A stretch of 64,000 bases of DNA from a virus (IMGVR_UViG_3300032224_001591:62001-126000), one strand, 5' to 3'; numbered from the stretch's first letter, positions 2 to 48,299 are shown. The notes: a model not told the origin generated them from the letters alone. Translations and numbers: made by a program.

Positions 2-3000
2 ACTTTAAGTGGAACTTCAGGTTCAACAGGATCTAATGGTTCTTCAGGAGCTGCAGGTCAAAGTGGTTTAAGCGCAACTAGCGGAACAGCAGGTTCTGCT
101 GGTTCTACAGGTTCAAATGGTGCCGCCGGTCAAAGCGGTTTAAGTTCAACATCAGGTTCTTCAGGTACTTCAGGTTCAAACGGATCTACAGGTAATGCTG
201 GAACTTCAGGAAATAGTAATACAGCCGGAACATCCGGTTCAACAGGTTCTACAGGTTCATCAGGTATTGCTGGACAAAGCGGTTTATCAGCAACTAGTGG
301 AACTTCAGGTTCTGCTGGTACAACAGGTTCTTCGGGTGATGCTGGAAATAGTGGAATTAGCGGCACAAATGGTACATCAGGTTCATCAGGAACTTCAGGT
401 TCAACTGGAGCTAGTGGTAATGCGGGTGCTTCAGGAGCTAGTGCATCTTCAGGATCAACCGGTTCAAATGGTAGCTCAGGAGCTGCTGGTTCAAGTGGTT
501 TATCCTCTTTATCCGGTACTTCAGGTTCAACTGGTACTAATGGTTCTTCAGGTATTGCTGGTTTAAGTGGTGCAAGTGAAACTAGTGGTACTGCTGGTAC
601 TTCAGGTTCAACGGGTTCAAATGGTATAGCTGGACAAAGTGGTTTAAGCGCTACTTCAGGAACATCCGGTTCAACAGGTACAAATGGTTCTACAGGTAAT
701 GCTGGAACTTCAGGAAATAGCAATACAGCAGGTAGTTCAGGAACTTCAGGTTCTTCAGGTTCTACAGGTTCAGCAGGTGTTGCTGGACAAAGCGGTTTAA
801 GTGCAACTTCAGGATCTTCAGGTTCAACAGGTACAAGTGGTTCTACAGGTAATGCTGGTAGTGGTGGATTTAGCAATACATCAGGTTCATCAGGTTCATC
901 AGGTACAAGTGGTGAAACCGGTACAAGTGGTACTTCAACATATGCAGCTTCTGGAACTTCAGGTTCTGGAGGTTCATCAGGTACAAGTGGTGAATTAGGT
1001 TCAAATGGAACTTCAAATATATCAAGTACTTCAGGATCTTCAGGATCAAGCGGTACAACAGGTTCAGCAGGTGCAAATGGTCAAAGTGGTGCGAGTGCAT
1101 CTTCAGGCTCTTCAGGTTCAACTGGTTCAAATGGTAGTTCAGGAAACGCAGGTACATCAGGAAATAGCTTTACAAGTGGAACTTCAGGTTCTACAGGATC
1201 TAATGGTTCGGCAGGTATAGCAGGTTTAAGTGCTAATTCTTCAACAAGTGGAACTTCAGGTTCTAGTGGTACAAGCGGTTCAGCCGGAAATGCGGGTCAA
1301 AGTAATTCATCTTCAACTTCAGGTTCTTCTGGTTCTTCTGGTTCTTCAGGATCTGCAGGTTTAGCAGGTGCAAGTGCTGCTTCCGCAACTAGCGGAACTT
1401 CAGGTTCTAGTGGTTCTACAGGTTCAAATGGAGCTAGTGGTCAAAGTGGTTTATCAGGTACTTCAGGTTCATCAGGTTCAACTGGATCAAATGGTTCAAC
1501 TGGTGTGGCTGGTACTAGTGGTAATAGTGAAACTTCAGGAACTTCAGGTTCATCAGGTTCTACCGGTTCAGCAGGTGCGGCAGGTATAAGTGGTTTAAGC
1601 TCAACAGCCGGAACATCAGGTTCATCAGGTTCAAATGGTTCTACTGGTGTCTCAGGCACTAGTGGAAATAGTAATACAGCAGGTACTTCTGGCTCTGCTG
1701 GTACAAATGGTTCTACAGGAGATGCAGGATTAAGTGGCGCTTCCGCTACTAGTGGTACATCAGGTACAACGGGGTCTACTGGTTCAAACGGAGTAGCAGG
1801 TCAAAGTGGTTTATCATTTACTGCAGGTTCATCAGGCTCAGGAGGTTCAAACGGATCTTCAGGTGTTGCTGGTACCTCAGGTACATCTTCAGCAACTAAT
1901 TCAGGAACTTCAGGTTCAAGTGGTTCAAATGGCTCTTCAGGAAACACAGGTTCAAATGGTTTAAGTGCATTAAGCGGAACTTCAGGATCAACAGGTTCAA
2001 ATGGCTCTTCAGGTTTATCAGGTAATAGTGGGTTAAGTGGAACTTCAGGTTCAACGGGTTCATCAGGTTCAAATGGTAACGATGGAGCTAATGGTTTATC
2101 AGCATTAAGTGGTACTTCAGGTACTTCAGGATCAAATGGTTCAAGTGGTAATGCTGGTTCATCAGGTTTAAGTGCATCATCAGGTTCATCAGGTTCAAAT
2201 GGTTCTTCAGGAAATACAGGTTCAAATGGTTTAAGTGCATTAAGTGGTACTTCCGGATCTACTGGTACTAATGGTTCTAGCGGAAATGCAGGTTCAAACG
2301 GTCTATCTGCTTTATCAGGTACTTCAGGTTCAACTGGTTCAAATGGTTCTTCAGGAGCAGCAGGTCAAAGTGGTTTAAGCGCAACTTCAGGAACTTCAGG
2401 TTCTTCAGGTTCAACAGGAGTAGCAGGATCAAGTGGTTTAAGTGCAACCTCAGGTACAACTGGATCAAATGGTTCAAGTGGTGTAGCTGGTTCAAATGGT
2501 TTATCTGCTTTATCAGGTACAGCAGGTTCATCAGGTACAACCGGATCAAGCGGTGTTGCTGGTGCATCAGGGACTAGTTCAACGTCGGGAACTTCAGGTT
2601 CGACTGGTACCACAGGTTCAAATGGAAACGCAGGAGCTAGTGGTTTAAGCGCAACTTCAGGTTCATCAGGTTCAACAGGTTCAAATGGTACAAGCGGTAA
2701 TGCTGGTTCAGCAGGTGCAAGTGCTTTATCTAATACAAGTGGTAGTTCAGGTTCTTCAGGAACATCAGGTTCTACAGGTGCCGCCGGTGCTAGTGGAGCA
2801 AGTGCAACTTCAGGAACATCAGGATCTACAGGATCTAATGGTTCAAATGGAGTAGCAGCTTTAAGTGGTACAGCAGGATCTTCGGGTTCTAATGGTAGTT
2901 CAGGAGAAGCAGGTACATCAGGTACATCTTCAGGCTCTGTTTCAGGTACTTCAGGTTCAGGTGGTTCAAGTGGTACTTCAGGTAATGCTGGTTCTACAGG

Positions 3001-5600
3001 TGCTTCTGCTTTATCAGCAACTTCAGGTTCATCTGGCTCTAGTGGTACAACTGGTTCTTCAGGTATAGCTGGAGGTAGCGGAGCAAGCGCAACTTCAGGT
3101 ACATCAGGAACTACAGGTTCAAATGGTACCTCAGGAAATGCAGGTTCTTCAGGATTATCTGCTTTATCAGGTACATCCGGTTCAACAGGATCAAATGGTT
3201 CAAGTGGTGCAGCAGGCGCAAACGGATCTTCAAATATAAGTGGAACTTCAGGATCTTCAGGTTCTGCCGGTTCAAATGGTAATGCAGGTAATAATGGAGC
3301 TAGTGCAGTAAGCGGAACTTCAGGTTCAACTGGATCTAATGGTTCTAGTGGTATAGCAGGTTCAAATGGTTTATCAGCATTTGCTGGAACTTCAGGTTCA
3401 ACAGGTTCAAACGGATCTACAGGTGTAGCTGGAACTTCAGGAAATAGTAATACAGCCGGAACTTCAGGTTCATCAGGTTCAAATGGTACAAGCGGTAATG
3501 CTGGTTCAGCAGGTGCAAGTGCTTTATCTAATACAAGTGGTAGTTCAGGTTCTTCAGGAACATCAGGTTCTACAGGGGCTGCTGGAGCAAGTGCTGCTTC
3601 TGCTTCTTCAGGAACTTCAGGTTCAAGTGGAACAAGTGGAAATGTAGGTTCAAATGGTTTATCAGCTTTAAGTGGAACTTCAGGCTCAACTGGATCTAAT
3701 GGTTCTAGTGGTGCTGCTGGAGCTTCAGGTTTAAGTGCAACTTCAGGAAGCTCAGGAACTTCAGGTTCAAGTGGTACCACAGGTTCTACCGGAGCTTCAG
3801 GTTCAGGAGCAGCTAGTGGTACATCAGGTACTTCTGGTTCTACTGGTTCTAGTGGTACAGGAGCAAGTGGTACTTCAGGATTAGCAGGTACTTCAGGTAC
3901 ATCAGGCTCAACTGGTTCTTCAGGTGTAGCAGGAGCAAGTGGTTTAAGTCGTTCATCAGGTACTTCAGGATCAACAGGTTCTGCAGGTTCAAATGGTGTT
4001 GATGGAGCTATAGGTTTAAGTGGATTAAGCGGTTCAGCAGGTTCATCAGGTTCTAGTGGTACAACAGGTAACGCTGGTTCTGTAGGAGCAAGTGCAGCAA
4101 GTGCAACTTCAGGTTCTTCAGGTTCTTCAGGATCAACTGGTACTTCAGGTTCAAATGGTAATGCTGGAGCTAGTGGAAATAGTAATACATCAGGAACTTC
4201 AGGTTCTACAGGTACTGTAGGTTCTTCAGGTGCTGCTGGTACTTCAGGCAACGCAGGTTCTTCAGGAGCAAGCTCAACTTCAGGTTCAACTGGTACTTCA
4301 GGTTCTAATGGTGCAAGCGGTAATGCTGCTACAAGTGGTTTAAGTTCAACTTCAGGAAGCTCAGGTACTTCAGGTTCAACTGGTACAACGGGTTCTGCGG
4401 GTGCAGCAGGCGCTTCAGGTGCTAGTGCACTTTCAGGAACTTCAGGTTCATCAGGTTCAAATGGTACAAGTGGTAATGGTGGTTCAAATGGTAATGCTGG
4501 TACTTCAGGTATTTCAAATACTTCAGGATCTTCAGGAACTTCAGGTTCTAGTGGTCTTAATGGTGGAGCAGGAGCTTCAGGTTTAAGTGCAACTTCAGGG
4601 ACATCCGGTTCTTCAGGTTCATCAGGTTCGAATGGTAATGCAGGTGCAAGCGGAACTTCAAATATAAGTGGTACTTCAGGTTCTACAGGTTCAAATGGTA
4701 CATCAGGTAATGCCGGTGCAAATGGAGCTTCTGCAGTTAGTGGAACTTCAGGATCTACAGGTTCTACAGGTTCAAATGGTGCAGCAGGTGGAAATGGAGC
4801 TTCTGCAGTAAGCGGAACTTCAGGTTCAAGTGGTACAACAGGTTCTTCAGGAGCTAATGGCGGTGCTGGTACAAGTGGAATAAGTAATACTGCTGGTACT
4901 TCAGGATCAACTGGTACAAACGGCTCTTCAGGAGCAGCAGGTGCTAGTGGTGTAAGTGGTTTAAGCGGTACTTCAGGTACAACTGGTACTACAGGTTCAA
5001 ATGGTGCGGCTGGTGGAAATGGTATTTCAAATGTAAGCGGAACTTCTGGTTCTTCAGGTTCTACAGGTTCATCAGGTAATGCTGGGGGAAATGGAGCTTC
5101 AGCAGTAAGCGGAACTTCAGGTACATCCGGTTCTAACGGTACCTCAGGTAACGCTGGAGCTAATGGTGTTTCAAACGTATCCGGTACTTCAGGATCTTCA
5201 GGTTCAGCAGGTTCAAATGGCGCTGCTGGTGGAAACGGAGTTTCAAATGTAAGTGGTACTTCAGGTACAACAGGTTCAAACGGTACAAATGGTAATGCAG
5301 GTGCAAATGGAACTTCAAACATATCTGGAACTTCAGGTTCATCAGGTTCTACAGGTTCATCAGGAGCAGCAGGAGGTAATGGAGCTTCAAATATAAGTGG
5401 TACTTCAGGTACAACAGGTTCAACAGGTTCATCTGGTAATGCTGGAGGAAGCGGTACTTCAAATGTATCAGGAACTTCTGGTTCTACGGGTTCAACAGGT
5501 TCCTCAGGTAATGCTGGTGGAAATGGAGCTTCAGCCGTGAGCGGAACTTCAGGTACAACAGGATCTTCAGGATCTTCAGGTGTAAGTGGTGCTAATGGGG
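2..5600 (+). repeat. 72-bp / 24-residue degenerate tandem repeat of Gly-X-Y triplets
   Basis: Consecutive units such as SGTSGSTGSNGSSGAAGQSG followed by LSAT line up every 24 residues. Gly occupies every third position seven times; in the eighth triplet Gly is replaced (ATS, NTA, STA and similar), but the reading phase of three is kept. Codons vary freely (GGT/GGA, TCA/TCT/AGT), so the protein pattern is conserved more than the DNA. Long antisense frames across this region are a by-product of the repeat. Confidence 0.85.
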
Positions 5601-6913
5601 GAAGCGGAACTTCAGGTGTAAGCGGAACTAATGGTTCTAGCGGATCAGCAGGTATAAGCGGTGCAAATGGAGGAAATGGAACTTCAGGTGTAAGTGGTAC
5701 AAACGGAACAAATGGTTCTAATGGTACAAGCGGTGTAAACGGAGTTTCAGGCGCTAGTGGTTCTTCAGGAACTTCAGGTGGAAGTGGTACTTCAGGTACA
5801 ACTGGTTCAAACGGATCTTCAGGTGGAAATGGTGTAGCCGGAGCAAGTGGTGCCAGCGCAACTTCAGGTTCAACTGGTACAAACGGTTCATCAGGTGGAA
5901 ATGGTGTTGCTGGAGGAAGTGGTGTAAGTGCAACTTCAGGTACAACTGGTTCAAACGGATCTTCAGGAAATAATGGTGCTAATGGTGCTAGTGGAGTTTC
6001 AGGTGTAAGTGGAACTAACGGTACAACAGGTTCAAATGGAGCTAATGGTGGTAACGGCGTAAACGGAGCTTCAGGTACTTCAGGTGTAAATGGTACAACA
6101 GGTTCAAACGGAGCTGCAGGTGGTAACGGTGTAAATGGTGCCAATGGTACAAGTGGTGTTAATGGTACAACAGGTTCTAATGGTGCTGCAGGTGGAAATG
6201 GAGCTAATGGTGCTGGAGGTACTTCAGGTGTAAACGGATCTACAGGTTCTAATGGAGCGGCAGGTGCTAGTGGTGTTAATGGTGCTGGAGGTACTTCAGG
6301 TGTAAATGGTACAACAGGTTCAAGTGGTGCTGCTGGTGGTAATGGAGCTAATGGTGCTAATGGTACAAGTGGAGTTAATGGTACAAATGGTACTTCAGGT
6401 GCGGCTGGTACAAGTGGACAATCAATTAATGGTACTTCAGGTATTAGTGGTGGTTCATTTACAAATCAACCAGATTATTTAGTTAGAACAACAAGTGCAA
6501 CACAAGTACAAAGTGTAAGTTTCTTAAAAGCGGATACAACAAACACTAGATTAGGTATTAATAATGCTTCACCGTCATATACATTAGATGTTGGAGGTGA
6601 TATATATGCATCTAATAATGTTATAGCTTATTCTGATGAAAGAGTTAAAGAAAATATTGTAACAATTAGCAATGCTTTAGATAAAGTTAAAAATCTTAGA
6701 GGTGTTAATTATACAAGAAAAGATATTAAAGACAAATCATTACAAATGGGTGTTATTGCACAAGAAGTTCAAAAAGTAATCCCAGAAGTAATATCTGTTA
6801 GAGAATCGGATGGTCATTTAGCTGTAGCCTATGCAAATATAGTTGGTTTATTAATTGAAGCAATAAAAGAACAACAAAAACAAATTGACGAGTTAAAAGT
6901 AAAATTAAAATAA
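2..6913 (+). CDS. Giant collagen-like tail fibre with C-terminal S74 intramolecular chaperone (5' truncated)
   Basis: The frame is open from base 2, so the gene begins left of the window; at least 2303 residues are visible. About 2150 residues are Gly-X-Y triplets rich in Ser, Thr, Asn and Ala, with essentially no proline. For most of the length seven Gly triplets alternate with one Gly-less triplet, giving a 24-residue period; after about 5600 the Gly triplets run with little interruption. The C-terminus (about 6460 on) has a short beta-type segment and then an endosialidase-type S74 chaperone domain with SDERVKEN, MGVIAQEVQKVIPE and a terminal coiled coil. In this family the chaperone trimerises the fibre and cuts itself off before the Ser, here codon 6632. 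Role: trimeric receptor-binding or whisker fibre. A GTG at 1505 is internal, not the start. Confidence 0.9.
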   Translation, partial: TLSGTSGSTGSNGSSGAAGQSGLSATSGTAGSAGSTGSNGAAGQSGLSSTSGSSGTSGSNGSTGNAGTSGNSNTAGTSGSTGSTGSSGIAGQSGLSATSGTSGSAGTTGSSGDAGNSGISGTNGTSGSSGTSGSTGASGNAGASGASASSGSTGSNGSSGAAGSSGLSSLSGTSGSTGTNGSSGIAGLSGASETSGTAGTSGSTGSNGIAGQSGLSATSGTSGSTGTNGSTGNAGTSGNSNTAGSSGTSGSSGSTGSAGVAGQSGLSATSGSSGSTGTSGSTGNAGSGGFSNTSGSSGSSGTSGETGTSGTSTYAASGTSGSGGSSGTSGELGSNGTSNISSTSGSSGSSGTTGSAGANGQSGASASSGSSGSTGSNGSSGNAGTSGNSFTSGTSGSTGSNGSAGIAGLSANSSTSGTSGSSGTSGSAGNAGQSNSSSTSGSSGSSGSSGSAGLAGASAASATSGTSGSSGSTGSNGASGQSGLSGTSGSSGSTGSNGSTGVAGTSGNSETSGTSGSSGSTGSAGAAGISGLSSTAGTSGSSGSNGSTGVSGTSGNSNTAGTSGSAGTNGSTGDAGLSGASATSGTSGTTGSTGSNGVAGQSGLSFTAGSSGSGGSNGSSGVAGTSGTSSATNSGTSGSSGSNGSSGNTGSNGLSALSGTSGSTGSNGSSGLSGNSGLSGTSGSTGSSGSNGNDGANGLSALSGTSGTSGSNGSSGNAGSSGLSASSGSSGSNGSSGNTGSNGLSALSGTSGSTGTNGSSGNAGSNGLSALSGTSGSTGSNGSSGAAGQSGLSATSGTSGSSGSTGVAGSSGLSATSGTTGSNGSSGVAGSNGLSALSGTAGSSGTTGSSGVAGASGTSSTSGTSGSTGTTGSNGNAGASGLSATSGSSGSTGSNGTSGNAGSAGASALSNTSGSSGSSGTSGSTGAAGASGASATSGTSGSTGSNGSNGVAALSGTAGSSGSNGSSGEAGTSGTSSGSVSGTSGSGGSSGTSGNAGSTGASALSATSGSSGSSGTTGSSGIAGGSGASATSGTSGTTGSNGTSGNAGSSGLSALSGTSGSTGSNGSSGAAGANGSSNISGTSGSSGSAGSNGNAGNNGASAVSGTSGSTGSNGSSGIAGSNGLSAFAGTSGSTGSNGSTGVAGTSGNSNTAGTSGSSGSNGTSGNAGSAGASALSNTSGSSGSSGTSGSTGAAGASAASASSGTSGSSGTSGNVGSNGLSALSGTSGSTGSNGSSGAAGASGLSATSGSSGTSGSSGTTGSTGASGSGAASGTSGTSGSTGSSGTGASGTSGLAGTSGTSGSTGSSGVAGASGLSRSSGTSGSTGSAGSNGVDGAIGLSGLSGSAGSSGSSGTTGNAGSVGASAASATSGSSGSSGSTGTSGSNGNAGASGNSNTSGTSGSTGTVGSSGAAGTSGNAGSSGASSTSGSTGTSGSNGASGNAATSGLSSTSGSSGTSGSTGTTGSAGAAGASGASALSGTSGSSGSNGTSGNGGSNGNAGTSGISNTSGSSGTSGSSGLNGGAGASGLSATSGTSGSSGSSGSNGNAGASGTSNISGTSGSTGSNGTSGNAGANGASAVSGTSGSTGSTGSNGAAGGNGASAVSGTSGSSGTTGSSGANGGAGTSGISNTAGTSGSTGTNGSSGAAGASGVSGLSGTSGTTGTTGSNGAAGGNGISNVSGTSGSSGSTGSSGNAGGNGASAVSGTSGTSGSNGTSGNAGANGVSNVSGTSGSSGSAGSNGAAGGNGVSNVSGTSGTTGSNGTNGNAGANGTSNISGTSGSSGSTGSSGAAGGNGASNISGTSGTTGSTGSSGNAGGSGTSNVSGTSGSTGSTGSSGNAGGNGASAVSGTSGTTGSSGSSGVSGANGGSGTSGVSGTNGSSGSAGISGANGGNGTSGVSGTNGTNGSNGTSGVNGVSGASGSSGTSGGSGTSGTTGSNGSSGGNGVAGASGASATSGSTGTNGSSGGNGVAGGSGVSATSGTTGSNGSSGNNGANGASGVSGVSGTNGTTGSNGANGGNGVNGASGTSGVNGTTGSNGAAGGNGVNGANGTSGVNGTTGSNGAAGGNGANGAGGTSGVNGSTGSNGAAGASGVNGAGGTSGVNGTTGSSGAAGGNGANGANGTSGVNGTNGTSGAAGTSGQSINGTSGISGGSFTNQPDYLVRTTSATQVQSVSFLKADTTNTRLGINNASPSYTLDVGGDIYASNNVIAYSDERVKENIVTISNALDKVKNLRGVNYTRKDIKDKSLQMGVIAQEVQKVIPEVISVRESDGHLAVAYANIVGLLIEAIKEQQKQIDELKVKLK

Positions 6914-39710: not shown

Positions 39711-39732
39711 AGGGGGTCTTTTGACCCCCTTT
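39711..39732 (+). terminator. Rho-independent terminator after nrdA
   Basis: AGGGGGTC (39711-39718), TTTT loop, GACCCCCT (39723-39730), then TT. The strongest stem in the window by GC content. A TATTTATG element follows at once. Confidence 0.85.
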
Positions 39733-39748
39733 CATATTTATGTATAAC
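39733..39748 (+). promoter_or_regulatory. TATTTAT-type element before the envelope cassette
   Basis: CATATTTATGTATAAC directly after the terminator and 46 nt before the start codon at 39795. A promoter is required here, and this is the only candidate I see. Confidence 0.45.
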
Positions 39749-39794: not shown

Positions 39795-40901
39795 ATGAAA
39801 AAACTTCTTTTAGCACTATTGTGCTTGATCCCTGCGGTAACATTCGCGCAAACGGGTCCCGCTGCTCCCGGAGCAGGTAATTACCTATTAATTGACACCA
39901 CTTACACCGTAGGTACGTCAGTAGCAAACCAAACCAAAGCAAAAATCACGTACAAAAACTCAACAGGTACGAAAGTAACCGGGGTTCAGTTCCGTGTATT
40001 CTATGATAAGGTTGCGTTTAAAACACCATCAGTAGCATTAGTTACAGCAAATTCAGATTTGAACTTGCAATATGTAAATGATACTACAAATGGTAATATC
40101 ACTATTACATTAGTGTACATTGGTAGTTCTTCTACTTATACACTACCAAATGCTGAAACGTTTGAAATTACGTTCAACCACGCTCCAGCAGCAACATTCC
40201 AGTATTTAACAGCAATTGATTCGATGAAGTTTACAGGTGCTTTATCTTATAGTCAATTAGCATCTAAACAATCAGGTATGGATACTACCTTAAGCTTATA
40301 TAGCTATGGTGGTTATTTTTACAGACCTAGATTTACTTACACAGCTACATTTACAAACGTAACTGGTACTCCATCTAAAAACATCACTGTATCATTAGAG
40401 AAAAAACCTAAAACAAGTGGTGCTTGGACTATCGTTACAACTAAATCAACTGGATTAACGGGTACTGTATCTTATGATGAATTCATTGATACTACTTATT
40501 GGGCAGTTAGATTAGAAGTTAAAGGCGATACAATATCAACGGGTAATATAGTTTCAGTAGCAGATGCTCAAAAAGTAAACCAATTCGTATTAGGCACAGC
40601 AACACCAGCAGGATTTGATTTTTATTCATCTGATGTAAATGGTGATAATCAAATCTCAATCTCAGATGCTTATGTAATATTTGGTAGAATTGCAGGTAGA
40701 TTTAATACTTGGGTTAACAACGTTAAAGATATTAAATTCTTTACAGCAACCGAATACAATACAATTAACACATCAACAACTAACTTAACAGCAACTACAC
40801 CAGGAGTAACCAATTTCACATACAATATCGTAGCAGGCCAACCAAACTCAGTAACATATTACGTGTTAGGTATGGGTGATGCTAATGGAACGGGTATATG
40901 A
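39795..40901 (+). CDS. Secreted cohesin-like/dockerin-like protein, N-terminal part
   Basis: 368 residues. MKKLLLALLCLIPAVTFAQ is a signal peptide with an AxA-like cut site. Residues 20-160 look like a cohesin-type beta-sandwich (GVQFRVFYDKVAFKTPSVAL). A second beta domain follows, then two dockerin-like repeats, the better one being DVNGDNQISISDAYVIFGR with the Asp/Asn calcium loop. The frame ends at TGA 40899-40901 but continues in the same frame in the next entry, so the original gene probably spanned 39795-41687 (about 630 residues). The dockerin module is repeated in the protein at 44767. Confidence 0.75.
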   Translation: MKKLLLALLCLIPAVTFAQTGPAAPGAGNYLLIDTTYTVGTSVANQTKAKITYKNSTGTKVTGVQFRVFYDKVAFKTPSVALVTANSDLNLQYVNDTTNGNITITLVYIGSSSTYTLPNAETFEITFNHAPAATFQYLTAIDSMKFTGALSYSQLASKQSGMDTTLSLYSYGGYFYRPRFTYTATFTNVTGTPSKNITVSLEKKPKTSGAWTIVTTKSTGLTGTVSYDEFIDTTYWAVRLEVKGDTISTGNIVSVADAQKVNQFVLGTATPAGFDFYSSDVNGDNQISISDAYVIFGRIAGRFNTWVNNVKDIKFFTATEYNTINTSTTNLTATTPGVTNFTYNIVAGQPNSVTYYVLGMGDANGTGI

Positions 40902-41687
40902 ATGGCAAGACTGACGCCTATAAAAATTACTAACCCAAACAATAGTGACTATATTATAGACGAAACAGTCGAATACTTGGCTAACTTGAATACGATTGAA
41001 GTTAGATTGCCATCTTTATCAGTTGATGAAGGTAATTTAGTAAACATACCTATAAAGGTTTTTACTAATGGTGAAAGATTAGGAGCATTACAGCTTGCGA
41101 TGAAATTTGATACAACATTATTAGCATTTAAAGGTGTAATAGCTGAAGAAAAAGTTGGTAATTGGATGTCATTTGTGAATCCAAATAGCGGAGTGATTGA
41201 GTGGGGTGGATATGATGTTACTAATAACGAACACTTATTAAATAATGAAGAACAAGTTTTAACGCTTCAATTTCAAGCATTAAAACCTAAAGCAAATTGG
41301 AATACATCACCGTTGTATGTTACTCGCAAATTTGCGGGTAACAGTACAGCGACTGACTTAAACATAACCCCAACTGATGGTAGAGTTGAGATTAAAAGAA
41401 TTAAAAATCCAAACGCGATTCAAGACGATGCTGTAGCAACTATACAAGTAAGTCCAAATCCAACAACAGGAGAAATAACAGTTCAATTCTCAGTACCTAA
41501 AGACGGACAAACAATGGTTGCACTATATGACCAAAATGGAAGAAAAATATATACAGTTGTCGAGGGAAACATGCCTAAGGGTATTTATACGTATAAAGCA
41601 AACATTAGTGATTTTAAAGCAGGTATGTACGTAGCTAATTTAAGTACTAGTGAATATAAAACATATAGTAAATTAATATTAAATTAA
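40902..41687 (+). CDS. Cohesin domain plus T9SS type A sorting domain, C-terminal part in the same frame
   Basis: 261 residues from the ATG right after an in-frame TGA. LPSLSVDEGNLVNIPIKVFT then LGALQLAMKFDTTLLAFKGV is a cohesin domain. The last 75 residues are a type IX secretion sorting tail: VSPNPTTGEITVQFSVPKDG, ALYDQNGRKIYTV, KGIYTYKANISDFKAGMYVA and the final YSKLILN. T9SS occurs only in Bacteroidota. Alone, this product has no signal peptide and could not reach the T9SS, so it makes sense only as the end of the upstream protein, by readthrough or before a nonsense mutation. Reinitiation at the adjacent ATG is possible but would give a cytoplasmic product. Confidence 0.75.
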   Translation: MARLTPIKITNPNNSDYIIDETVEYLANLNTIEVRLPSLSVDEGNLVNIPIKVFTNGERLGALQLAMKFDTTLLAFKGVIAEEKVGNWMSFVNPNSGVIEWGGYDVTNNEHLLNNEEQVLTLQFQALKPKANWNTSPLYVTRKFAGNSTATDLNITPTDGRVEIKRIKNPNAIQDDAVATIQVSPNPTTGEITVQFSVPKDGQTMVALYDQNGRKIYTVVEGNMPKGIYTYKANISDFKAGMYVANLSTSEYKTYSKLILN

Positions 41688-41688
41688 A

Positions 41689-41817
41689 ATGAAAAAATTA
41701 TTAATATTTATAGTTATAACAATGTTAAGTTCTTGCGTTGTTATGGTAAAACCAAAATACGGATGTAAAGGTAATTATTTCCACCATCCAATCCATAAAA
41801 TAAAACACCATTTTTAA
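41689..41817 (+). CDS. Small lipoprotein
   Basis: 42 residues, too short for routine ORF calling. The sequence MKKLLIFIVITMLSSCVVMV has a lipobox (LSSC) with Cys16 as the lipidated residue. The short mature part is His/Lys-rich (NYFHHPIHKIKHHF). Its stop is directly followed by the ATG of the next gene. It could be an outer spanin-like lysis component or part of the envelope cassette. An AATATTTATAG stretch lies inside its start. Confidence 0.6.
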   Translation: MKKLLIFIVITMLSSCVVMVKPKYGCKGNYFHHPIHKIKHHF

Positions 41818-42168
41818 ATGAAAAATCCATTTAATAAATTACTAGGACAACCAGATCCAGTACAAGTAGAAGATAAAAATCGCTTCTATTACATGTTGCA
41901 ACAAATGCAAGTTAATCGTTGGAAAATTACAGGTATTGTATTATTCCTATTTTTCTTTATCATATTCGGTATTAATATGGCCGTTATGTTTAAATTAGAA
42001 ATAGCTGAAAATTGGAAAGAAATGTTACTTATATTATTAGGTGCATTCGTAGGTAACTTAAATAAAGTAGTAGACTACTGGTTTAACTCTGAAGACAGAG
42101 ATAAAATGCTAATTCAGAAAGTAGACGAAGAAGACGGAGTATCATTATCAAACACTTTAAATCCATAA
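41818..42168 (+). CDS. Two-TM membrane protein (possible holin)
   Basis: 116 residues. Hydrophobic segments at about 36-58 (ITGIVLFLFFFIIFGINMAV) and 66-86 (MLLILLGAFVGNLNKVVDYW), with a charged cytoplasmic tail. The second segment ending VVDYWFNS recalls small phage holins of the type that end in a YWF-x-S motif. It abuts the small lipoprotein gene and lies 4.8 kb from the endolysin, so a lysis role is uncertain. Confidence 0.5.
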   Translation: MKNPFNKLLGQPDPVQVEDKNRFYYMLQQMQVNRWKITGIVLFLFFFIIFGINMAVMFKLEIAENWKEMLLILLGAFVGNLNKVVDYWFNSEDRDKMLIQKVDEEDGVSLSNTLNP

Positions 42169-42172
42169 TAAA

Positions 42173-42505
42173 ATGTCAGAAGAACAAAATGTAGAGACTA
42201 ACGACGGAACTTGGTCAGGTCTTAAAAAAACAATCGTTGGTGCAATTTCAACAGCAGTATTAGCAGGTGGTACTTGGGTTACTACAACATTATTTGGTGG
42301 TGGTCACGATAAAGAAGAGACTAAAACTGAACAACCCGCAGCCGCTCCTGTTATTAATGTTAATTTAGAAAATAACAATACTAACCAACAAAAACAATCA
42401 GGTGGAACTACTACAATTATTAAAGAAAAAACTGTAGAAAAAGCAGCTCCAGCTAAAGAAGAAAAACCAGCTAAAAAATCTGAAACAGAAGACGCTCCAT
42501 GGTAA
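42173..42505 (+). CDS. Small single-TM protein with charged low-complexity tail
   Basis: 110 residues. One hydrophobic stretch (about 20-42, IVGAISTAVLAGGTWVTTTL) followed by an Asn/Lys/Glu/Ala-rich tail ending EDAPW. The last bases overlap the start of the next gene. Not recognised; likely membrane-anchored with a flexible tail. Confidence 0.5.
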   Translation: MSEEQNVETNDGTWSGLKKTIVGAISTAVLAGGTWVTTTLFGGGHDKEETKTEQPAAAPVINVNLENNNTNQQKQSGGTTTIIKEKTVEKAAPAKEEKPAKKSETEDAPW

Positions 42506-43206
42506 GATTATTAATCATATTATTGTTTTTACCTTTGTTTTCTTGTGCTCAAATTGGTAGCATAAAAACAGAAAAATTTAAAGCTAAATTTGAAACCGGG
42601 ATCTCTATAGACTCGGTTTCAAACTATACTGATACTATCAAAGTACCAATTCAATTATTAAAAATTGGATTTACTGAAGAATTATATGAAATGTATCCTG
42701 AATTAAAGGATAAACGTGTTGGTTTAGGTGTAACAAATATTGTTATTGAATACCTTGAAATGACTAATCGTTTTGAATTTACAGAAGATAAATTGGAAAT
42801 TAAAGAAAGAATGATTAACCAATTTAAAGCATCTGCTAAAGGATTTACTGAAAACAAATTAGATGGTAAAGGTAAAATTAAACTAGCTAAATATTTCGTT
42901 TATATTGAAGTATATGACTTCAGTGTTTCCGAAGACGAAGTTGTAAAAGTAAAAGGTAAAGCAACAGCAACACAAACTACTCGTTTAGGTTTACAAGTTA
43001 AATTTGTAGATGCTGAATCAGGAACTATTATTACAGGTAGTGATATGGGTGAAGCATCAACTGTAAAAACATCTTCAATCTTAAGCGATGTAGATGAAAT
43101 TAAATTTAACCAATCTACAATTGGTATTACAACTAAAAAAGCACTTGAATCAGCTAGTGCTAATGTTATTGTAAAATTAATTAAAAAAGGAGTATTTAAG
43201 TCATAA
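42499..43206 (+). CDS. CsgG-family outer-membrane lipoprotein
   Basis: 235 residues. LLIILLFLPLFSCAQ is a lipoprotein signal with Cys16. The mature part follows the CsgG pattern: VGLGVTNIVIEYLEMTNRFE, a central KYFVYIEVYDFSVSEDE in place of the usual LGAdylV strand, then TTRLGLQVKFVDAESGTIIT and a conserved-looking C-terminal helix. CsgG forms a nonameric outer-membrane pore that exports curli subunits. A phage-encoded version next to secreted and barrel proteins is unusual. It could export a cassette protein or act on the host envelope; both are inference. Confidence 0.65.
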   Translation: MVRLLIILLFLPLFSCAQIGSIKTEKFKAKFETGISIDSVSNYTDTIKVPIQLLKIGFTEELYEMYPELKDKRVGLGVTNIVIEYLEMTNRFEFTEDKLEIKERMINQFKASAKGFTENKLDGKGKIKLAKYFVYIEVYDFSVSEDEVVKVKGKATATQTTRLGLQVKFVDAESGTIITGSDMGEASTVKTSSILSDVDEIKFNQSTIGITTKKALESASANVIVKLIKKGVFKS

Positions 43207-43526
43207 TGAAAACAAAATTATTTGTACTAGCACTTATTTTAATAGTTGTAACAAACGCTTATTTTAAATATACTGAGCGTAAGGAAATAATTAAACAAAA
43301 TGAAGAATTAGTTCAAACCATAAATGCTGTAGAAAAAACAGTTAAAGATTATAAAAAAATAGTTACTGAAGTAGAAAATGATCCTTGCTTAACAGAAGGA
43401 GCAGCTGCCGCTATTATAGATAGTGCAATTACTGGAAGTGATAGTTATACTGAAACAGGTTACCAAGATCCCTCAATGGTTGTAATAGATTCAGTATTGG
43501 CTATAACTTCAAAAGTAAACAAATAA
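43206..43526 (+). CDS. Signal-anchor protein with coiled coil (spanin-like layout)
   Basis: 106 residues. An N-terminal membrane anchor (MKTKLFVLALILIVVTNAYF), then a charged helical segment (KEIIKQNEELVQTINAVEKT) and a soluble tail. The layout resembles an inner-membrane spanin, but the gene is inside the envelope cassette and has no paired outer spanin except possibly the small lipoprotein at 41689. Both its start and its stop overlap neighbouring genes by one base. Confidence 0.45.
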   Translation: MKTKLFVLALILIVVTNAYFKYTERKEIIKQNEELVQTINAVEKTVKDYKKIVTEVENDPCLTEGAAAAIIDSAITGSDSYTETGYQDPSMVVIDSVLAITSKVNK

Positions 43527-44767
43527 TGAAATATTTACTAACCATATTGTTAGTAATAGTTGGATTGGTTAGCTACGGCCAATCCTTCAACTATGCTTAC
43601 TTCGATCCGTGTGACGGTAATTTAAAAACAGTAGCTGTTCCTTTAGGACAAAATCAAATAGCAGTTACTTACTTTAATCAAGTAAAATCATTTGACTTAA
43701 TAGATTTAACAAATGGTGTATTTGATACTTGGGTAAAAAATACTTATAACACTTATAGAACAACTTCACCTTGTGCTGGTGTAGGTATTACAAATGTAAT
43801 AACACAATCTCAAGGTACAACTGTTACTTTAACAGGTATAATAAATACAGTTGCTAATCTATCATTTCCTAGCCCTAACGCTCCTGATCCTAACGAACCA
43901 CCAGCAACACCTGATATAGATGTAAGTAGTGATGTTGGAGGTGGAGAAGGAACTGGAGGTGATATAGGTGGAGGTGGAGACGCAGCAGGCGGAGGATCAG
44001 ATGTAATGAGTGGAACAAGCAATAGTATTAAATCATCAGACGGAGGAGGAGATAGCGGAGGAGGAAGTGGAGGTTCATCTGGTGGTGGGAGTAAAAGTGG
44101 AGGTGGTAGTAATAAATCATCTTCAAACCAAAAACAAAATGTTTTAAAACCAACAGTAATTGGCTCAAGTGATTTAGTGGCTTATAGTTCAGCTGATAAA
44201 ACTAGAGGTGGTAAAATATCAGGTGGTTATACTTCAACTAGATGGGATGGATTAAGAACAAGTGGTTGTTTATTTGATTATTCAACTCAAATACAAGGAC
44301 CTAACATTACTGGTTTTTATGGTTGGATAGGTAAGAAACGAACTACATTATTATCAAACACAGTATCAATTGGATTTGAAGGTAAAGGTTCACTTTACAA
44401 TTCAGTTGCGTTTGGTCAAGTAGTTAACTGGGCTGGTATTAAATTAGTTTATATGGCTTCGGCTTCATATGGACATATTTATAAACAGCAACTAATTGGT
44501 ACTTCAGCGATTGTAGGTGCAATGTATGATTTTAAAATAGCAAAAGTTATAGGTGTTAAGTTAACTAGTTTATTAGTTTATTCTCCTTACATGCAATACT
44601 ATAACGATTTACTTTTAAAATCACCATTAGTAGTATTACCATCAATAGGTACTAATGTTAGTTTAACTAAAAACTTTAAAATTAATTTGAATTTAGGAGG
44701 TGCTTATCAAGTAGGTACTGGTGCTCTAAATTATTCATTTATTATAGGTTCTAGAATAGCATTATAA
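43526..44767 (+). CDS. Secreted protein with Gly/Ser linker and outer-membrane beta-barrel-like C-terminus
   Basis: 413 residues. MKYLLTILLVIVGLVSYGQ is a signal peptide. An N-terminal globular part with two Cys is followed by a long Gly/Ser/Asp-rich linker (about 135-205). The last 200 residues alternate hydrophobic strands and turns (SIGFEGKGSLYNSVAFGQVV, INLNLGGAYQVGTGALNYSF) and end GSRIAL, the look of an outer-membrane barrel. The start overlaps the preceding stop. It probably inserts in the host outer membrane; the function is not identified. Confidence 0.6.
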   Translation: MKYLLTILLVIVGLVSYGQSFNYAYFDPCDGNLKTVAVPLGQNQIAVTYFNQVKSFDLIDLTNGVFDTWVKNTYNTYRTTSPCAGVGITNVITQSQGTTVTLTGIINTVANLSFPSPNAPDPNEPPATPDIDVSSDVGGGEGTGGDIGGGGDAAGGGSDVMSGTSNSIKSSDGGGDSGGGSGGSSGGGSKSGGGSNKSSSNQKQNVLKPTVIGSSDLVAYSSADKTRGGKISGGYTSTRWDGLRTSGCLFDYSTQIQGPNITGFYGWIGKKRTTLLSNTVSIGFEGKGSLYNSVAFGQVVNWAGIKLVYMASASYGHIYKQQLIGTSAIVGAMYDFKIAKVIGVKLTSLLVYSPYMQYYNDLLLKSPLVVLPSIGTNVSLTKNFKINLNLGGAYQVGTGALNYSFIIGSRIAL

Positions 44768-45924
44768 TGAAACATTTATTAACTATATTATTCGTTTTAT
44801 TATCATTTGTAGGTTACAGTCAATTTACTTACAGTGGTTATATTTATAATTCAGATGGATCAGGAGCAAATAATGTGCCTGTTAAAGTATATAAACGTAC
44901 AACCACAACTACATCTACAGGTACTACATCAGTAAGAATATTTAGAACACACGCTGGTAATGGTAGTACAAATCAATATGCTCAGTGGCCACTGAGTAGA
45001 GTAGAAATGGATAAATGTTTTAATACCGCTTATACAAATACTACTTTATGGTGGAGTGGCAGTTTAGCAGCTACAGCATCTTTAAATTTTAACGCTTATA
45101 CAACATTAACATCAGCTGGAGCATCAGTACCAGGTGGTGGGGATTATTATGCTACTGAAGTTACATTTGTAATTTATCCTAAAGAAACAGGAACATATAC
45201 TTTTGGATTAACATCAGACGATGGTGGTGATTTATGGTTAGTTGGATATGGAAATGTAATTGAATGGTATGGAGGTAAAGGTACAGGTCAATATGTTTAT
45301 GGTAGTGTTAGTTTAACAGCAGGAACCGCTTATACATTTATAGCTAGAATGCAAGAATATGCTGGGGGTGATGGTTTATTAGTTTATTGGAAACGTCCTT
45401 CACAAGTGAGTTATTCATTACAAACAGACGAAATAGGACAATCATCAACTTCAACTACAGCTTGGGCTTTAGATGCTACTGCTTATACAAATTCGTCAGG
45501 ATTATATTCAATATCAAGACCAACAGGTACAGGTGTTGAATGGTATTTACAATATGATGCTCCAACACCCGTTACAGCGCTCACAAATACTGATATAACA
45601 GCAGTAAGTAATATAGTTAATACTAAAACAGCATTTAATGGTATTTACTATTACATGTATGATGTAAATGGAGATAACAAAGTAACAATATCAGACGCCT
45701 ATTATATTAGTGGTAGAAAATGGAATATATTTACTGATTGGATTAGTTCATTTAAATCAAGATACTTTACTCCAGCGCAATATAATGCTATTAAAGCAAC
45801 AACATCAAATCTAAAAACAACATATCCAGGTGTAAGTTCAATTACAACAAATAGCCCTACATCAGGCGGCACAGCAAACTATTATTTAATCGCACCTGGT
45901 TATTCAGGAGCAGTAAGTTACTAA
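44767..45924 (+). CDS. Secreted PA14-domain protein with C-terminal dockerin-like module
   Basis: 385 residues. Signal peptide MKHLLTILFVLLSFVGYSQ. Residues about 75-225 are a PA14 domain: FVIYPKETGTYTFGLTSDDG, GDLWLVGYG and TAYTFIARMQEYAGGDGLLV, a fold linked to carbohydrate binding. The C-terminal 110 residues match the dockerin-like module of the 39795 protein: DVNGDNKVTISDAYYISGR followed by W-containing helices. No T9SS tail. A dockerin here and a cohesin in the reading frame at 40902 suggest the two could bind each other at the cell surface; this is inferred. Confidence 0.7.
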   Translation: MKHLLTILFVLLSFVGYSQFTYSGYIYNSDGSGANNVPVKVYKRTTTTTSTGTTSVRIFRTHAGNGSTNQYAQWPLSRVEMDKCFNTAYTNTTLWWSGSLAATASLNFNAYTTLTSAGASVPGGGDYYATEVTFVIYPKETGTYTFGLTSDDGGDLWLVGYGNVIEWYGGKGTGQYVYGSVSLTAGTAYTFIARMQEYAGGDGLLVYWKRPSQVSYSLQTDEIGQSSTSTTAWALDATAYTNSSGLYSISRPTGTGVEWYLQYDAPTPVTALTNTDITAVSNIVNTKTAFNGIYYYMYDVNGDNKVTISDAYYISGRKWNIFTDWISSFKSRYFTPAQYNAIKATTSNLKTTYPGVSSITTNSPTSGGTANYYLIAPGYSGAVSY

Positions 45925-45926
45925 TT

Positions 45927-46376
45927 ATGAAAAAACTATTATTTTTATTGTTATTATTACCTACAATGTCTTTTGCACAAAACTGTATTAAAATTGATTC
46001 GGTATGGTGTAATAAAAAAGTTAAACAAATAAGCACAAGAAACGTATTATTTGGTATAAAACAAGTAGCCGAAGAAATATTATCTGAAAAATACAATTTA
46101 TGCGACTCTAATGCTACTTCAGTTAAAATTGAAGTAACTCGTATAGGAATGCCATCAAGTACATTTAAAATAGGTGGTGTAGGAGAAGCAACACAAATTA
46201 CACAAGTCTATATTAAACTTTATTTTGGAGACAAAATCATAGATGGTATGGGTGAGTCCGAGACCCGCGCAGGATTCGTCCTTATTGAACTAACAGACGG
46301 CAAAGTACCATTTAATAATACAACTATAGGAACGGCTATAAAAAAGGCGATATTAAACGCTTCTGAAAAACTTTAA
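45927..46376 (+). CDS. Secreted protein, possibly CsgG-related
   Basis: 149 residues. Signal peptide MKKLLFLLLLLPTMSFAQ. The mature part has SVKIEVTRIGMPSSTFKIGG and VYIKLYFGDKIIDGMGESET, then TTIGTAIKKAILNASEKL at the end, resembling the C-terminal half of CsgG-type proteins (compare the gene at 42499: TTKKALESASANVIVKLI). The link is weak. Last gene of the cassette; a TATTTATA element for the lysis genes overlaps its stop. Confidence 0.5.
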   Translation: MKKLLFLLLLLPTMSFAQNCIKIDSVWCNKKVKQISTRNVLFGIKQVAEEILSEKYNLCDSNATSVKIEVTRIGMPSSTFKIGGVGEATQITQVYIKLYFGDKIIDGMGESETRAGFVLIELTDGKVPFNNTTIGTAIKKAILNASEKL

Positions 46377-46386
46377 TATTTATAAT
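46374..46386 (+). promoter_or_regulatory. TATTTATA-class element upstream of the lysis genes
   Basis: TAATATTTATAAT, 19 nt before the start codon of the holin candidate at 46406. It overlaps the preceding stop codon. Confidence 0.5.
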
Positions 46387-46405: not shown

Positions 46406-46654
46406 ATGAATTTTAAACAATGGATCATTGATCTTTTTAAAGATGAAAGAGGATCAACATCAGTAAAACCAGTAGTAGCCATGATGGGTACTTTATTTTT
46501 ATGTGTTACAATGACTTTAAACAGTTATTCACATGCAGATTTCGCTCCATCTCCAGATTTAGTACAAGCAGTATTAGTAATTACAGCAATTGGAATGGGG
46601 GCGGACTCTATTGACAAATTTACACATAAAAAAGAAAATAAAACAGAAGAATAA
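46406..46654 (+). CDS. Putative holin
   Basis: 82 residues with two hydrophobic segments (about 22-42 VVAMMGTLFLCVTMTLNSYS and 53-70 VQAVLVITAIGMGADSIDKF), a basic/acidic N-terminus (KDERGSTSVKP) and a charged C-terminus. Size and layout fit a class II holin. Its stop overlaps the endolysin start (TAATG), the classic holin-endolysin pairing. Confidence 0.65.
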   Translation: MNFKQWIIDLFKDERGSTSVKPVVAMMGTLFLCVTMTLNSYSHADFAPSPDLVQAVLVITAIGMGADSIDKFTHKKENKTEE

Positions 46655-47253
46655 TGGACTTACAAAAATTAAAAGGACACGTTCCGGATGCAGTTATTGA
46701 AATGTTACCGGACACAATGGCAAAATTTGAATTAAACACTCCATTACGTTTAGCACATTTTCTAGCTCAAGCTGGTCACGAAAGTGGTGGTTTTAAAGCT
46801 GTAAATGAAAATTTAAACTATGGTGCTAAAGGTTTACGTGGTATTTTTGGAAAATATTTCCCAACAGATGCTAAAGCATTAGAATATGAGCGCAAACCTG
46901 AAAAAATTGCTAACCTAGTTTATGGTAGCCGTATGGGTAATGGTGCAGAAGCAACAGGTGAAGGATACAAATTCAGAGGCCGTGGTTATATTCAATTAAC
47001 TGGTAAAGATAATTACGTTGCTTTCGGTAAAGCTATTAACGAAGACTTAACAGCAAATCCTGATTTAGTAGCAACTAAATATCCATTAGCATCAGCTGCA
47101 TGGTTTTTTCACAAAAATGGTTTACATAAAATAGCTGACGAAGGTGCTAACGAAGCAACAGTTACTAAAGTTACGAAACGCGTTAATGGTGGAACAATCG
47201 GTTTAGCTGATCGTTTAAAACACTTTAACGAATATTATAAATTATTAGCATAA
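46654..47253 (+). CDS. Endolysin, GH19 chitinase-like muramidase
   Basis: 199 residues. The GH19 lysozyme pattern is clear: FLAQAGHESGGFKAVNENLN with the catalytic Glu in GHES, a central NLVYGSRMGNGAEATGEGYK, and FRGRGYIQLTGKDNY, with ASAAWFFHKNGL and TKRVNGG downstream. It cleaves peptidoglycan at the end of infection. No signal peptide, so it depends on the holin. The length is typical for single-domain phage GH19 endolysins. Confidence 0.88.
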   Translation: MDLQKLKGHVPDAVIEMLPDTMAKFELNTPLRLAHFLAQAGHESGGFKAVNENLNYGAKGLRGIFGKYFPTDAKALEYERKPEKIANLVYGSRMGNGAEATGEGYKFRGRGYIQLTGKDNYVAFGKAINEDLTANPDLVATKYPLASAAWFFHKNGLHKIADEGANEATVTKVTKRVNGGTIGLADRLKHFNEYYKLLA

Positions 47254-48267: not shown

Positions 48268-48299
48268 CGTGGCTACCGCAAGGTAGCTTCGTATATTTA
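48268..48299 (+). promoter_or_regulatory. Class I promoter with a hairpin in the spacer
   Basis: CGTG at 48268-48271 in the -33 position, 20 nt, TATATTTA at 48292-48299; the start codon is at 48324. The spacer holds a perfect hairpin GCTACC-GCAA-GGTAGC (48272-48287) with a GNRA loop. It could be an operator, or a terminator for the upstream gene fused to a promoter. Confidence 0.55.

Follow-up and report, generated by a model that had tools for sequence, protein, structure and literature searches.

Phage genes with type A tails of the type IX secretion system (T9SS), one of them with a PA14 domain, have been described in Cryophage (Bellas et al. 2020, PMC7468147). This T9SS cargo consists of separate endoglucanase, GH39 and PA14 genes, is variable among relatives, and was proposed by its authors to reflect hijacking of the host system; cohesin, dockerin and lectin are not mentioned in the text of that paper (PMC7468147). 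A phage-made envelope protein is known from T5, whose lipoprotein Llp prevents particles from engaging the receptor, both on infected cells and on fragments of lysed ones (PMC9586334). A search of the literature on cohesins or dockerins in phages yielded nothing relevant.

Here we describe a cassette for which the Cryophage cargo is the nearest precedent, sharing with it the phage-encoded T9SS type A tail and PA14, but differing by its cohesin, dockerin and lectin modules. The cassette has the cohesin recognition domain of cellulosome scaffoldins, a putative dockerin called from its motif and from sub-threshold scores, and the plan of a scaffold with exchangeable dockerin partners, whereas no enzyme domain was matched in its scaffold or in the dockerin protein g8 or their relatives, the partners are lectin-like, a T9SS tail replaces cell-wall anchoring, and the whole is encoded by a phage. 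It resembles Llp in that masking by phage-made envelope proteins is proposed; Llp is a single small lipoprotein acting on a protein receptor, whereas the cassette would specify a multi-protein, probably glycan-directed outer assembly. A preliminary description of this DNA knew of no comparable phage system. This applies to the cohesin and dockerin modules, for which we found no precedent, but not to T9SS cargo as such (PMC7468147), and a secreted lectin display block of this type is apparently undescribed.

The analysed DNA of 64,000 nt (the window) corresponds to bases 62001-126000 of a virus record of 147,248 bases. The phage is one with a contractile tail; its sheath, tail tube, baseplate hub and a tail fibre of 1802 aa were recognised. 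Ribonucleotide reductase genes lie ahead of the cassette, and a GH19-type endolysin gene comes after it (Table 1). Its interval, 39795-46376, had been thought to hold eight to nine genes; we found ten ORFs, all on the plus strand.

Table 1. Features of the cassette and its flanks, with positions counted from the first base of the window; L003 and L017 are relatives of the window.
Feature	Position	Strand	Remark
Intrinsic terminator between rnrA and cassette	39711..39730	+	8-pair stem, then T-run
CATATTTAT, core of late-type promoter-like element	39733..39741	+	kept upstream of L003, L017
g1: signal peptide, N-terminal cohesin-like domain, Fn3-like domain, dockerin	39795..40901	+	weak cohesin and dockerin scores
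In-frame TGA, proposed readthrough site	40899..40901	+	in window, L003, L017
g2: cohesin and T9SS type A sorting domain, without own signal peptide	40902..41687	+	both over cut-off
Predicted RNA stem, beginning 7 nt past the TGA	40909..40970	+	z -2.7
Small lipoprotein, 42 aa, window clade only	41689..41817	+	LSSC lipobox
g3: small membrane protein, possible holin	41818..42168	+	43/73 loci
g4: small protein, hydrophobic segment near N terminus	42173..42505	+	73/73 loci
g5: CsgG-fold protein, predicted export, lipobox in window	42499..43206	+	73/73 loci
g6: membrane-anchored coiled protein, window clade only	43206..43526	+	PHROG match E 0.015
g7: predicted exported, putative outer-membrane barrel	43526..44767	+	73/73 loci
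g8: signal peptide, PA14, dockerin; front module swapped between phages	44767..45924	+	PA14 26.8 bits vs 24
g9: small, predicted exported, resembles part of g5	45927..46376	+	73/73 loci
Next intergenic late-type element, before g10 and endolysin	46375..46384	+	AATATTTATA
GH19-type endolysin adjoining the cassette	46654..47253	+	phrog_181 endolysin, E 7e-70

Viral contigs were scanned with g1, g2, g8 and g5, followed by a profile search over all loci. The scan confirmed g5 in at least 558 viral stretches, the best 80 of which supplied the loci from the g5 scan, with very distant members under-sampled. Cassette-bearing contigs reach 343 kb, and the virus records are possibly fragments. In all 73 loci with enough flanking DNA, known duplicates left out, the profile search detected a common core comprising the g1/g2 scaffold, g4, g5, g7, g8 and g9. 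Because most of these loci were retrieved by g5 alone, the other core genes were not selected for. Only three gene orders occur: g7 followed by g8 and then g9 (55 loci), g9 preceding g8 (15 loci) and g8 at the front (3 loci). The preliminary description had made its case depend on a neighbourhood conserved in relatives, and this core is such a neighbourhood; its observation of an envelope cassette is partly confirmed, and its interpretation partly supported. Judging from the sequences, the cassette appears to be common to hundreds of large Bacteroidota-type viruses, whose hosts, other than that of the cultured phage immuto, are suggested by the T9SS tail and by sequence relatives.

The scaffold encoded by g1 and g2 would read, in order, signal peptide, cohesin, Fn3-like domain, dockerin, cohesin and T9SS tail. 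In 57 non-redundant relatives it is a single ORF of about 630-660 aa, with a signal-peptide-like start in 56/57 scaffolds. The g2 cohesin (PF00963) scores 27.8 bits against a cut-off of 24.1 and the T9SS sorting tail (PF18962) 42.4 bits against 27. Cohesin is over the cut-off in 14/14 genomes; a second, N-terminal copy was detected in several of these and exceeds the cut-off in one (16.8 bits in the window's g1, over the cut-off in the relative G001). The T9SS tail occurs in 10/10 genomes, in nine of them as a single copy. The two dockerin ORFs reach 14.1 and 20.2 bits, under the Pfam cut-off of 22.9, so that of the cohesin/dockerin protein with a T9SS tail proposed earlier the cohesin and the tail stand and the dockerin is sub-threshold; its Ca-loop motif is present in 56/57 scaffold relatives. 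In Foldseek searches, the best PDB matches of the scaffold model, a weak one with a mean pLDDT of 52, were cohesins, the top one a cohesin-Fn3 construct.

In the window these domains, described earlier as one protein, are encoded not by one ORF but by two in the same frame, split by a TGA. The g1/g2 junction exists in three states: fused in most relatives; divided into two genes that both have a signal peptide (L008, L009 and immuto); and, in the window, L003 and L017, split by a TGA with a conserved Met-Ala-Arg immediately after it. The junction peptide is GTGI*MARLTPI in the TGA type and GTG[FY][HNK]MAR.TPI in relatives, 55 of which are unbroken and have CAT, AAC, AAA or other codons aligned to the TGA. 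A search for further members by DNA pattern returned only L003 and the L017 contig; three other matches were rejected as out-of-frame chance matches. Sequencing error was rejected since the three contigs differ by 0.19-0.31 at synonymous sites, and reassignment of TGA because 14/159 ORFs end in it and a suppressor tRNA was not detected.

While fused and separate-gene relatives carry signal peptide and T9SS tail on the same polypeptide, in the window the two would be joined only if the TGA is read through. In the TGA-type sequences g2 has no signal peptide and yet is under purifying selection, with dN/dS of about 0.095-0.19 (0.06-0.10 for g1), which suggests stop-codon readthrough as the simplest account of the split scaffold; the case comes from one clade of three sequences. 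At the position of the predicted RNA stem these rank 1, 2 and 4 among 58 homologous stretches, weak evidence amounting to about one independent observation because the three are near-identical; an Rfam search gave no match. In the RNA phage Qbeta, a leaky UGA followed by A leads to A1, a minor extended surface protein. The stop in the window is likewise followed by A, but here in a DNA phage, and the extension would carry the secretion and anchoring signal. It is also conceivable, though in our judgement doubtful, that nothing is read through and that g2 starts at the following ATG and has a cytoplasmic role, or that the scaffold is decaying in this lineage. The ATG stands directly after the TGA, which is an ordinary stop in this phage, and no suppressor tRNA was found. 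Against this, a cohesin with a T9SS tail has no evident use in the cytoplasm, and both are still under purifying selection although g2 has no signal peptide.

The dockerin protein g8 keeps its dockerin end while its front module varies. Among 59 proteins we counted 34 with a C-type lectin, 14 with Laminin-G and 8 with PA14, and in L029 a Laminin-G domain is inserted within the C-type lectin. These are mostly glycan-binding folds. The exchange occurs between close relatives, as expected if the target is a variable glycan: g1 of L017 is 95% identical to that of the window, but its g8 has a C-type lectin in front where the window has PA14. Mean column identity is lowest for g8 (27%) and highest for g5 (72%). 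A signal-peptide-like start is present in 58/59 g8 proteins; g8 has no T9SS tail. The PA14-dockerin protein recognised earlier is borne out for PA14, which is over its cut-off; the dockerin is just under that of Pfam, with the Ca-loop motif in 54/59 proteins. The motifs EPN and WND, which are of the mannose type, occur together in 40/59 and support the predicted binding of glycans by g8 modules, and with it the polysaccharide binding proposed before. We also considered receptor mimicry, with further lectin or PA14 copies in tail fibres. It was rejected since PA14 (3/10 genomes) and C-type lectin (11/16 genomes) occur once per genome where present, with no tail copy seen.

For g5, a model with a mean pLDDT of 72 gave CsgG proteins as all 24 best PDB matches (E 3e-8). 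By sequence, 1/47 members matches PF03783, and a PDB sequence search gave no match. The modelled fold, the predicted export and the lipobox of the window resemble curli CsgG, but sequence similarity is small and no curli subunit gene was recognised in the cassette. At the place of the membrane pore hairpins, the loops of g5 look shorter on inspection than those of CsgG. Of the CsgG-like lipoprotein in the preliminary description the fold is upheld by the model; lipidation is not conserved, most relatives having no cysteine. Signal-peptide-like starts were found in g5 of the window, in 63/63 g7 and in 53/53 g9 proteins. g7, the outer-membrane barrel of the preliminary description and here a putative one, combines a variable Gly/Ser linker with a conserved C-terminal domain and, its signal peptide apart, had neither a family match nor a PDB sequence match. 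g3 contains a membrane segment. The small lipoprotein exists as an ORF, but its presence among the relatives checked is limited to L003 and L017, so it is no conserved part of the cassette; neither is g6, which is confined to the window's closest relatives and whose suggested likeness to spanins comes from a PHROG match of E 0.015. csgG-like genes in marine phages are listed as virulence genes (PMC7003362), and g5 of this cassette might account for such genes.

The terminator ahead of the cassette is found at the same place in L003, and a second one lies at 48271-48288. A shared late-type element had been noted before, and this was corroborated: AATATTTATA occurs ten times in the window, always on the plus strand, against 2.1 expected. 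Its core ATATTTAT is present 53 times on the plus and six times on the minus strand of the 147 kb genome, in which nearly all genes are on the plus strand. Most intergenic copies lie 12-40 nt upstream of a start codon, and copies precede the sheath (14596) and tail tube (16788) genes. The core at 39734 is farther than usual from the start of g1, 61 nt upstream, and a further match to the element lies inside the small lipoprotein gene. A sigma-70 scan gave sites not above those in shuffled sequences. As the element before g1 is common to tail genes, the cassette is probably expressed late, provided that this element is a late promoter.

The sequences are best read as encoding a cohesin-dockerin assembly that is secreted, tied to T9SS and able to bind polysaccharide. 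We lean towards regarding the cassette as a module by which large Bacteroidota phages carry out surface display late in infection, with a cohesin scaffold delivered by T9SS holding dockerin-lectins. The scaffold would pass the Sec pathway and then the host's type IX machine, ending up attached to the cell's exterior. In the window, readthrough would join its halves, giving many short periplasmic molecules and few anchored ones of full length. Its cohesins would hold the dockerin of g8, whose front module would bind glycans, and scaffolds may be chained to one another by their own dockerins. As partners in the envelope, g5, g7 and g9 would assist g8 in crossing or position the complex; g8 may traverse the outer membrane with the scaffold via T9SS or through g5/g7. 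The fully specified form, a T9SS-dependent cohesin-dockerin structure with exchangeable lectins, export of g8 with the scaffold or through a phage-made CsgG-like pore, and, in one lineage, an amount of anchor set by readthrough, is possible and is put forward tentatively. Points against display are the weak scaffold model (mean pLDDT 52), the dockerin scores under the Pfam cut-off, the missing T9SS tail of g8 and the distance of 61 nt between element and g1.

As to purpose, the leading candidate is masking, of which Llp in T5 is an example (PMC9586334): by covering receptor glycans of the dying cell and of its debris, the coat would prevent the loss of progeny and keep rivals from adsorbing. 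Even so, masking taken by itself is somewhat unlikely to be the purpose, although for a lytic phage the host's own surface glycans would be the likeliest lectin target, with adhesion second. Blocking of superinfection, as suggested earlier, is one option; with an element common to tail genes, a late role, be it masking or adhesion, is a better fit than early exclusion. In adhesion, the lectin coat would stick infected cells or debris to other cells or to algal polysaccharide and bring progeny to new hosts. The anatomy would be that of the display module, and both the varied, mostly glycan-binding front modules and the element common to tail genes agree with it, so the lectin could serve this end instead of masking. 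It requires binding of foreign rather than own glycans, two cases that these results do not separate, and we regard it as unlikely.

Less probable still is a module for opening the envelope at lysis, in which the secreted products would compromise the outer membrane or surface layer and g3, g4 and g10 would act as holins beside the GH19 endolysin. The endolysin gene is at most 2.7 kb away in 46/73 loci, the cassette includes small membrane proteins, and a CsgG fold and a putative barrel would sit in the outer membrane; but 27/73 loci have no GH19 match in the flanking DNA covered, the conserved core has no enzymatic or spanin domain, and a lysis factor would not be expected to swap lectins. 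That the cassette proteins end on the particle as adhesion domains is highly improbable. Lectin-like modules are known on other phage particles, and the element is that of tail genes, but tailed virions assemble in the cytoplasm, and the T9SS tails and the signal-peptide-like starts of nearly all scaffold and g8 and all g7 and g9 proteins argue against ordinary assembly there.

If the display reading is true, phages remodel the surface of their hosts by means of the type IX system and of recognition as in cellulosomes, in a way apparently undescribed for any phage, and a conserved, unannotated block in hundreds of Bacteroidota-type phage contigs gains a testable function. The cassettes would then also supply naturally matched cohesin-dockerin pairs and lectins of varied specificity. 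For a cultured pair with the cassette there is phage immuto and its host, Flavobacterium sp. LMO8. In annotated phages the cassette is matched by the immuto group alone and is mostly unannotated there: the immuto record lists gp013 as a C-type lectin protein and gp015 as a cohesin protein, and the remaining cassette genes as hypothetical. A bacterial or prophage origin was rejected, as the only match to the scaffold among 84,980 prokaryote genomes is a 16.5-kb MAG contig with cassette genes, which is probably a misbinned phage.

PA14 domains sharing 48–53% identity with that of the cassette protein g8 were also observed in three other viral contigs (L013, L014 and L015), where they are part of ORFs of approximately 1080–1650 aa, and no further cassette genes were found in these contigs. 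In the 228-kb relative (G002), a second T9SS-tailed protein is encoded beyond the cassette, at G002:C1:7090-7308. The cassette is furthermore present on a contig assigned to a 'Sphingomonadaceae' MAG (L047), which is probably a misbinned Bacteroidota phage.

In the genome of the phage studied here (G000), the element AATATTTATA occurs on a single strand upstream of many genes and is a candidate phage late promoter. A search of the same genome for tRNA genes yielded none besides tRNA-Gln. Additional features are compiled in the table.

Coordinates of RNA genes, example promoter-like elements and the tail fibre
Feature	Position	Remark
tmRNA gene	L127:3465-3866 (= G000:C1:3465-3866)	tag AVELSTMTFEDVMSFVGADYAVAA
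tRNA-Gln	L127:3267-3338	
AATATTTATA element, example copies	window 14555, 16755, 17335, 18910, 21298, 46375	
Tail fibre, 1802 aa	window 1505-6913	collagen-like matches

Like g1 and g2, a second in-frame ORF pair in G000 (G000:C1:4688-5755) is separated solely by a single stop codon, here TAG. In the locus L028, an RNR beta homologue (L028:8251-10233) is interrupted by an in-frame insert of ~315 aa that is intein-like in character.
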